From NCBI GenBank assembly GCA_002683215.1, contig NYSY01000100.1, forward strand, positions 1 to 64,000: a stretch of DNA of 64,000 bases. Direction: 5' to 3'. Below the pieces are notes generated by a model. That model saw only the letters and a program-made list of their open reading frames with translations, was not told the origin of the DNA and made no database searches. Below, one piece after another: positions 40,538 to 42,943 of the stretch. This DNA is from Planctomycetaceae bacterium (GTDB taxonomy: Bacteria; Planctomycetota; Phycisphaerae; Phycisphaerales; SM1A02). Every line of letters starts with the position of its first letter. Within the stretch, counting starts at the first letter, position 1. The translations under genes and the position numbers were made by a program.

Positions 40538-41785
40538 ATGGCGAAGTCGGACTCACAGAGGCTGAAACTCAGTCGATTCGTCGATCTGGCGCGGATGTAT
40601 CGAGGATGGTCGCGCACCGAACTCTCCCGAGTGCTGGGCCGCGATCCGTCGAAGATCGTTCCAGAAAGCGGAAATCCCAAGCTGGATCTTCTGGTCGGAC
40701 TCGCGGATGCCCTCGATTGGAACGTCGGCGACGTCGCAGAAAGCGTCTGGAGCGACCAGGAGGCGTCAAGCCGGATCGAAACATGTCCTTTCCGCGAGCT
40801 CGGGCTCGAATCCCTGAAGGCACACGAAGCCGGGCGATACCAGGACATGCTCCAGATCGCCCGGCGAATGCGGTTGGTGGCCGAGACCCCGAGGGAACAC
40901 GCCATCACCTGCAATCGAGAGGTCGGTGCATGGGACGGGCTGGGGCGATATCCAAGGGCCCTTGAATCCTGCCAGGAAGGGCTCTCCGTGGGATGCCGCG
41001 ACAACGACGTGCAGTCGATGCTCCAGGCGAATCTCGCCAACGCGCATTACACCCTCTGGCACCTTCTGGAAGCGAAGACCGTCGCCAGGGATCTCATCGA
41101 ACGCCTCGATCAGGTCCCGAATCGAGGCGAAGCCACCAGGGTCGCGCTCGCACTCGCCCATTACGTTCGAGGCAACGTGGCGCGTCGCCAGCTCGACGAC
41201 GACACCACCGACCGATCGAAGATCGCTCGAGAATCCTCGGATCACCTTCGTCGATCCATCGAACTTCATCTCGATCTCGCTGCGGACTTCCCCAGCCCGG
41301 CCTACGAAGGCGTCGCGAACCCCGCACGCGGTGGCCTGCTGGAGGTCGAGGTGGCGATGGGCGTCGTCGAGCCCCGGGAAGCGATCGACCGGATCCTCGC
41401 CGGCATCGAGCGGGTGATCGATCCGGTGACGGCATCGTTGCCAGGTGATCTTCTCGAATCATGGGGCTGGTGGTCGATCTTCGGTTGCAACATCGCCCTG
41501 CGCCATCTGGACCAGACCACGATGCATCGTCCCATGGCGATCCTCACGAACAAGGCCACGGAAATCGCGAACGTGCTCGGCAACTGGGCCCTTCGGGAAC
41601 GTGCCTTCACGCTGGAGAACTTCCGTCGACAACGGATCGCGGATCTGACGGGCATGCAGCCTGACTGGTTCCTCGACGAGGAGGAGATTCGAACCATCAG
41701 CGGAACCATGGGCCGATTCCCCGGATTTCGCGAAGTGGGCTGGCGGATTCTCGATGCCGCCCACATCTTCGACACCACCAATTGA
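40538..41785 (+). CDS. XRE-family HTH regulator with C-terminal TPR-like helical repeats
   Basis: LARMYRGWSRTELSRVLGRDPSKIVPESGNPKLDLLVGLADALDWNVGDVAE (HTH) followed by helical repeats ALESCQEGLSVGCRDNDVQSMLQANLANAHYTL...; ORF track extends to 40412. Confidence 0.75.
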   Translation: MAKSDSQRLKLSRFVDLARMYRGWSRTELSRVLGRDPSKIVPESGNPKLDLLVGLADALDWNVGDVAESVWSDQEASSRIETCPFRELGLESLKAHEAGRYQDMLQIARRMRLVAETPREHAITCNREVGAWDGLGRYPRALESCQEGLSVGCRDNDVQSMLQANLANAHYTLWHLLEAKTVARDLIERLDQVPNRGEATRVALALAHYVRGNVARRQLDDDTTDRSKIARESSDHLRRSIELHLDLAADFPSPAYEGVANPARGGLLEVEVAMGVVEPREAIDRILAGIERVIDPVTASLPGDLLESWGWWSIFGCNIALRHLDQTTMHRPMAILTNKATEIANVLGNWALRERAFTLENFRRQRIADLTGMQPDWFLDEEEIRTISGTMGRFPGFREVGWRILDAAHIFDTTN

Positions 41786-41800
41786 GGAAAGGAGATATCG

Positions 41801-42133
41801 ATGACCAGCCTCTACTCACGCCTGTTCGGTCGGCCGCGACTCCGATCTCTTTCTCCGACCATGCTCATCCCGCCGCTTCTTCTGTTCGGTGCCATGCTGA
41901 CGGTACCGGTGAATGCCGCCGATGGACGTCGCAAGAAAGGAGTCGTTCGGTATCTGCACACGGGTCAGGGCGGCCTGATCGATGCCGCGGGATCCACCGA
42001 TTCGGATGAGCCTCGCATTCCTTACTTCAAGGGGACCATCCCCCCTCCGAAGTGGGCGACCGCCCCGATCCCACTCGATCTGTTGATTCCGATTCGATAC
42101 CTGAAACCAACTGCTCGACCACCCCGGCGCTGA
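41801..42133 (+). CDS. Small secreted/membrane protein (110 aa) with N-terminal signal-like segment
   Basis: RLRSLSPTMLIPPLLLFGAMLTVPVNAADG; gaaaggag RBS-like sequence upstream; 15 bp after the regulator gene. Confidence 0.65.
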   Translation: MTSLYSRLFGRPRLRSLSPTMLIPPLLLFGAMLTVPVNAADGRRKKGVVRYLHTGQGGLIDAAGSTDSDEPRIPYFKGTIPPPKWATAPIPLDLLIPIRYLKPTARPPRR

Positions 42134-42188: not shown

Positions 42189-42223
42189 GGCCAGTCGGGA
42201 ATCCTGAGGATTCCCGACTGGCC
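42189..42223. repeat. Perfect inverted repeat, 16-bp arms, 3-nt spacer
   Basis: GGCCAGTCGGGAATCC-TGA-GGATTCCCGACTGGCC. Confidence 0.95.
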
Positions 42224-42379: not shown

Positions 42380-42943
42380 ATGGATCGTCGGAGCATGGCG
42401 TGGGGATTTCGGCCCCGTGTCGGACACTCACGGATCGGACCCTTGATCAACAGCACCAACTCAAACGAAGAGTGGTTGAAACTCGATGATGCGGCGGCAC
42501 GCTTCGAGGTTTCCCGGAGGACCCTCGAGCGGCTTCGCAAGCAGGGCGTGTTGCCGGGCGTTCGAATCGGCCGGTATCTGAGCGTCCGAACGGTGGATGT
42601 CGAACGGGCGCTCGCCCGCCGGAGCCCCCTCCAGATCTATCGCCAACAAACGCAGGCGGACGCCCAACTGCCGACCCGGGAGTGGCTCCTCGGCTGGCGT
42701 CCGTTGCTCGAAGGCACCCCGAACCTGTCCTCGGCAAGAAGATGGGTCGATTGCGTCATCGACATGCACGGGGACACCAAGCTGGCAGACCTGACCGTCG
42801 GTGACGTGGTGGAAGTCGGCCGGGAGCTTCTCCTGAAAGAGGATGTGGCCCTGGCGTTCGAAGCACTTTCCGGGATCGCCCGCCAACGGAACATGCTGGA
42901 AACGACGCGGACCATGCTGAAGATTCTGGTTCCCGCCATCTGA
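42380..42943 (+). CDS. Excisionase/MerR-like HTH protein
   Basis: EEWLKLDDAAARFEVSRRTLERLRKQGVLPGVRIGRYLSVRTVDVERAL; start uncertain (42380, 42395 or 42443). Confidence 0.65.
   Translation: MDRRSMAWGFRPRVGHSRIGPLINSTNSNEEWLKLDDAAARFEVSRRTLERLRKQGVLPGVRIGRYLSVRTVDVERALARRSPLQIYRQQTQADAQLPTREWLLGWRPLLEGTPNLSSARRWVDCVIDMHGDTKLADLTVGDVVEVGRELLLKEDVALAFEALSGIARQRNMLETTRTMLKILVPAI

Follow-up and report, generated by a model that had tools for sequence, protein, structure and literature searches.

A conserved HTH-TPR regulator and its tag-bearing secreted partner in Phycisphaerae: a candidate RRNPP-like cassette outside Bacillota

Introduction

RRNPP receptors carry an N-terminal XRE-type helix-turn-helix (HTH) in all members but Rap, and the hallmarks of these systems are proteolytic maturation, re-import by an oligopeptide permease and density-dependent target control. 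The described system closest to the locus presented here is PlcR-PapR of Bacillus (RRNPP/RRNPPA), in which an XRE-type HTH is joined to a TPR superhelix and the gene of a small exported precursor lies directly behind. In Rap-Phr, NprR-NprX, ComR-ComS, Rgg-SHP and AimR-AimP, too, a TPR receptor is encoded next to the gene of a secreted peptide. RRNPP-type sensing is treated as a Gram-positive trait, and the published RRNPP/RRNPPA surveys look no further than Gram-positive Bacillota, their plasmids and their phages (PMC9765709, PMC10075063, PMC12700828). The default precursor length in RRNPP_Detector is 100 aa (PMC10075063), and tandemly duplicated propeptides have been described in RRNPP-type systems (PMC11343458). 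No description of RRNPP systems or peptide pheromones in planctomycetes was found in the open-access literature.

Here we describe a pair of genes in the window, i.e. the whole stretch of 64,000 nucleotides that was analysed (contig NYSY01000100.1 of a Planctomycetaceae bacterium). The initial annotation had listed a regulator of about 415 aa followed 15 bp later by an ORF of 110 aa, and both ORFs are present exactly as claimed.

Results

The first gene (40538..41785, + strand) encodes the putative receptor P0001 of 415 aa, and homologues starting at the equivalent residue support the start at 40538. In Pfam searches P0001 obtained a weak match to HTH_31 (E 0.02) and a TPR_2 stretch, whereas an NCBIfam search gave no match; no RRNPP subfamily model appeared among the results from either database, i.e. 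the protein is not placed in the RRNPP class at the sequence level. A profile of 81 regulator relatives matched consensus TPR proteins with an E-value of 2e-17. The AlphaFold2 model, computed from an alignment of 81 relatives, reached a mean pLDDT of 91.4 and consists of a clear HTH (residues 2-71) and about 15 antiparallel helices. The XRE-type HTH assigned to residues 1-72 (40538..40753, + strand) by this model and the weak Pfam match, and the C-terminal TPR superhelix assigned to residues 85-415 (40790..41782, + strand) by Pfam, model and profile search, are both traits of RRNPP receptors and had both been proposed from the sequence, the second as helical repeats to be checked by structure prediction. 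In the HTH, the residues R35, P47 and W61 are invariant across the family. When the model was compared with the PDB using Foldseek, the PlcR-PapR7-DNA complex (3u3w) was obtained at rank 2 (E 7.9e-5), and PlcR-PapR, Rap-phi3T with its pheromone, Rap-CSF and ComR followed at lower ranks. The other top matches were peptide-binding TPRs of eukaryotic LGN, which scored equally high. The fold is thus that of a peptide-binding TPR regulator; a fold match alone is no proof of an RRNPP ancestry.

The second gene (41801..42133, + strand) encodes P0002, a secreted partner of 110 aa and putative ligand precursor. It is separated from the regulator gene by an in-frame gap of 15 bp (41786..41800, + strand) carrying a strong ribosome-binding sequence (GGAAAGGAG) that stands just ahead of the second ATG (41801). 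Residues 1-39 (41801..41917, + strand) are predicted by a rule-based call, not by SignalP, to be a Sec signal peptide ending in AMLTVPVNA|ADG, in agreement with the signal-like segment previously seen before ADG; relatives keep the position of this signal, not its sequence. No match to P0002 was found in Pfam or NCBIfam. In the mature part, residues 53-57 (41957..41971, + strand) read HTGQG, a form of the family motif H[TS]xQ[DEG] described below (10-20-residue tag peptide: RYLHTGQGGLID), and the hexapeptide HTGQGG (residues 53-58) occurs once in its own genome, which is 69% complete. The basic C-terminus had been pointed out in the small ORF, and C-terminal fragments had been suggested for structure prediction with the regulator; conservation is found in this internal stretch instead, and a signal in the C-terminal fragment is not supported. 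Against close relatives, the small ORF of the window shows a dN/dS of 0.23-0.27 with unchanged motif, indicating purifying selection. Among close relatives in general, values of 0.14-0.35 were obtained for the partner, again with the tag unchanged, and of 0.01-0.11 for the regulator. Downstream of the partner gene, a hairpin with a perfect stem of 16 bp and a loop of 3 nt (42189..42223, + strand; shuffle z-score -4.7) occurs as a single copy within the window; it lacks a U run and is likely the end of the two-gene unit. An HTH_17 (MerR/excisionase-like) gene at 42380-42943 adjoins the cassette; its synteny is kept in the genus and sister genus, and it is fast-evolving (32-69% identity).

Of the 181 genomes in the GTDB family of the window, 149 contain the regulator, mostly as one copy each. 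The nearest regulators, 91-93% identical to P0001, come from MAGs labelled Phycisphaerae and Planctomycetia. In a search of 394 genomes of the phylum, G460 was the sole genome outside this family with a full-length relative; it belongs to a second family of the order and has the regulator together with an HTDQD partner. Further phylum-wide matches were generic TPR stretches and were ruled out as true relatives. An origin from a mobile element was likewise rejected, as 72,556 plasmid and 50,697 phage records contained no relative. In the genus of the window and a sister genus, the chromosomal setting of the locus is conserved, with cutC, pyrD and others upstream and the HTH_17 gene, a TPR gene and vWA/MoxR genes downstream.

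Flanks were extracted for 121 distinct regulators, 118 of which had enough sequence for the partner to be counted. A signal-peptide-like ORF lies 3' of the regulator in 99 of these 118, with a median gap of 14 bp and, in some genomes, overlapping stop and start codons. In a smaller set, a signal-peptide ORF followed 62 of 84 regulator copies versus 22 of 256 other genes at the same loci. The synteny check suggested by the initial annotation thus finds the small secreted ORF conserved beside homologous regulators across the family. The partners are 86-218 aa long in nearly all pairs, with lengths of up to 507 aa. Five loci (L038, L041, L042, L068, L207) contain, directly upstream of the main regulator, an additional, diverged copy lacking its own partner. 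In a clade of eight regulators (genus g29: L050, L083, L090, L168-L172) the next gene encodes a cation diffusion facilitator (cation-efflux) and no partner ORF is present. The predicted groove residues of these eight regulators are fully intact, and a search of the genus for an unlinked tagged partner gave nothing convincing; we expect either a ligand encoded elsewhere or an orphan receptor in this clade.

The secreted partners are hardly alignable with one another outside a short segment. H[TS]xQ[DEG] is found in 78 of the 99, versus 0.2 expected from shuffled mature parts, and is located about 24 residues past the predicted cleavage site. Its forms include HTNQD, HSNQD, HTGQD, HTVQE, HSMQE, HTMQE, HTGQG and others, and the last letter (D, E or G) changes only 5 times on the regulator tree. 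Ten partners contain two copies (e.g. FHTNQD...AHTNQD). The tag also occurs near the N-terminus of larger secreted proteins of 340-507 aa (L054, L057, L062), and thus behaves as a portable unit. In the genomes of several relatives, HTNQD/HTAQD sites away from the regulator were in wrong frames or in unrelated proteins and are attributed to chance. About one partner in three has a PEP-CTERM-like tail at its C-terminus, a feature of surface proteins, and one of these partners exceeds the cut-off of TIGR02595.

A different situation was observed in G002, which contains more than ten dispersed regulators of the family. Nearly every full-length regulator fetched from this genome has a secreted ORF of its own behind it, in most cases with the stop codon of the first gene overlapping the start codon of the second, which identifies the pair as the unit of duplication. 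The RRNPP trait of a small exported precursor that lies next to the receptor and is conserved with it is therefore seen both in the 99 of 118 regulators and in this co-duplication. The secreted ORFs of G002 form a paralogous family with a common C-terminal segment in place of the tag; partners at L061 and L254-L266 share PPPSPxLxPxLPxF...FaxWvxxNGxxDP instead of H[TS]xQ. These pairs possibly represent a diversified set of signals.

To relate the tag to the regulator, residues of the TPR groove were compared between pairs with and without it. Helix A of a TPR lines the concave face, and its positions 2, 5, 9, 12 and 13 contact peptides (PMC1261162). The Pfam TPR_2 match sets the register (residue 134 = position 13), so that N126 and G130 (40913..40927, + strand) correspond to positions 5 and 9 of TPR2, while H96 (40823..40825, + strand) was placed at position 12 of TPR1 by the conserved G-x-Y landmark; the three residues belong to the predicted ligand groove. 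Columns conserved in tag-bearing pairs were scored in 21 tagged and 13 untagged lineages, which are not fully independent, and each lineage was left out in turn. Retention of helix-A residues was 0.94 in tagged versus 0.78 in untagged lineages, whereas the HTH (0.93 versus 0.92) and the C-terminal part (0.95 versus 0.92) hardly differed. The helix-A-specific drop was significant in this leave-lineage-out comparison (Mann-Whitney p = 1.5e-4), and the same test gave a null result for the HTH and for the C-terminus. At the pre-set positions 2, 5, 9, 12 and 13 of TPR1-3, retention was 0.63 in tagged and 0.44 in untagged lineages (p = 8e-5). Since the remaining helix-A positions fall as well without the tag (from 0.67 to 0.58), the contrast between ligand positions and other helix-A positions reaches just p = 0.06.

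Individual residues follow the same pattern. All 80 tagged pairs have Gly at G130, versus 6 of 20 untagged ones, and H96, N126 and G130, picked after the fact, are all intact in 70 of 80 tagged versus 3 of 20 untagged pairs. One of these three exceptions, L049, has SSMQE at the place of the motif. T262, which is conserved in 78 of 80 tagged pairs, is Pro in the regulator of the window. A tree-aware paired test yielded 5 independent pairs on well-supported branches, too few for per-column significance. The decay of groove residues where the tag is absent supports a cognate receptor-ligand pair, and this co-loss lends support to a ligand contact on the concave TPR surface, for which the fusion model described next shows no docking.

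An AlphaFold prediction was also performed for regulator and partner as one read-through chain, in which the TGA was read as Trp (100 alignment rows, 17 of them paired). No docking was observed in this fusion, and the whole partner including the tag remained at a pLDDT of about 29 (mature part 26-39). Because the partner regions align poorly, we take this result as missing support and not as refutation.

Upstream of the regulators, an AT-rich half-site/dyad, TTTTC-N9..14-GAAAAAAGGCA, was detected in 16 of 120 cases versus 2.0 in shuffles; examples are L026, L027, L046, L053, L079, L091 and L203. In the window no such dyad is evident, and hits elsewhere across the genome revealed no clear regulon. 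In the relatives, the motif hints at a possible operator and at autoregulation. OppA-type binding proteins were found in 28 of 30 genomes, which makes peptide import possible and nothing more.

Discussion

We consider it probable that the two genes form a cassette of a cytoplasmic HTH-TPR receptor and a Sec-exported ligand precursor, which works in an RRNPP-like manner outside Bacillota. The HTH-TPR protein would act as a DNA-binding receptor in the cytoplasm, and the partner would leave through Sec with the tag (HTGQGG here) in its mature part. The TPR groove would recognise the H[TS]xQ[DEG] segment, presumably by direct binding. The most likely course would be the RRNPP route, in which export of the precursor is followed by proteolytic release of a tag-bearing fragment; after presumed re-import, this fragment in the cytoplasm would switch DNA binding at putative target genes. 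Partner length, the PEP-CTERM-like tails, the LGN scores, the g29 clade without a tagged ORF, the missing docking, the contrast of p = 0.06, the small number of 5 independent pairs and the post hoc choice of H96, N126 and G130 speak against the cassette reading. The earlier proposal of a peptide-sensing cassette outside Firmicutes consequently stands in part: co-duplication and co-loss support a cognate receptor-ligand pair, while the fusion did not dock and no RRNPP model matched.

A more far-reaching interpretation, which we put forward tentatively and with less confidence, is that these pairs are a peptide-sensing class of their own in Phycisphaerae, not descended from RRNPP. A portable H[TS]xQ[DEG] tag would be carried by varied exported proteins close to their N-terminus, and cells would sense the release or export of surface proteins; lineages would have changed tag and groove together, and one genome would have multiplied the pair more than tenfold.

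The main rival explanation accounts for nearly the same data as the exported-ligand reading, and we regard it as rather unlikely. Here the TPR domain would bind the tag on the unexported cytosolic precursor, and the regulator would thereby monitor the cell's own capacity for export and not an extracellular signal, comparable to TPR chaperone-regulators or secreted anti-activators. The tag is located near the N-terminus of the mature part and therefore present in the precursor too, the genes are adjacent, some with overlapping stop and start codons, and the co-loss of groove and tag fits such a secretion-coupled feedback equally well. Tagged secreted proteins of 340-507 aa, odd as pheromone precursors, also fit. 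However, the feedback has no need of the two tag copies in 10 partners or of the frequent PEP-CTERM-like tails; the OppA proteins are present but do not discriminate.

It is improbable that control of an adjacent secreted surface protein is all that the regulator does, with the tag acting outside the cell in anchoring, assembly or cleavage and the TPR domain sensing something else. The tails on about every third partner, the tag on larger secreted proteins and the fusion without docking would agree with this, but an extracellular role does not predict that specifically helix-A residues decay without the tag, and in the genomes checked, secreted proteins encoded away from the regulator carried no HTNQD-type tag. 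That the small ORF is a chance ORF or gene-calling artefact, as might be suspected from the high GC content of the genome and its numerous spurious ORFs in every frame, is refuted by purifying selection, the strong ribosome-binding sequence, the occurrence in dozens of genera and the common tag, and we give it hardly any credence.

If the exported-ligand reading is true, the design of an HTH-TPR protein with an exported peptide works across two membranes, in a diderm phylum and as a mostly single-copy pair of wide distribution, and planctomycetes gain a candidate peptide signalling system. It is directly testable, as the tag is a defined segment of five residues and the groove residues are named.

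With PEP-CTERM/exosortase surface proteins the partners share the tail seen in about a third of them; unlike in these proteins, the tail is absent from the partner of the window and from its relatives in the genus. In architecture and logic the pair looks like RRNPP, with the HTH-TPR receptor and adjacent exported precursor known from PlcR-PapR, and Rap-CSF, Rap-phi3T and ComR are among the structural matches. It differs from PlcR-PapR in its host, a member of the Planctomycetota, and in the lack of a sequence-level family match in Pfam or NCBIfam. While the precursors of PlcR-PapR are under 100 aa, most partners described here exceed the RRNPP_Detector default (PMC10075063). Finally, the conserved segment lies inside the protein instead of at its C-terminus, a PEP-CTERM-like tail occurs in some partners, and the regulator is single copy in most genomes.
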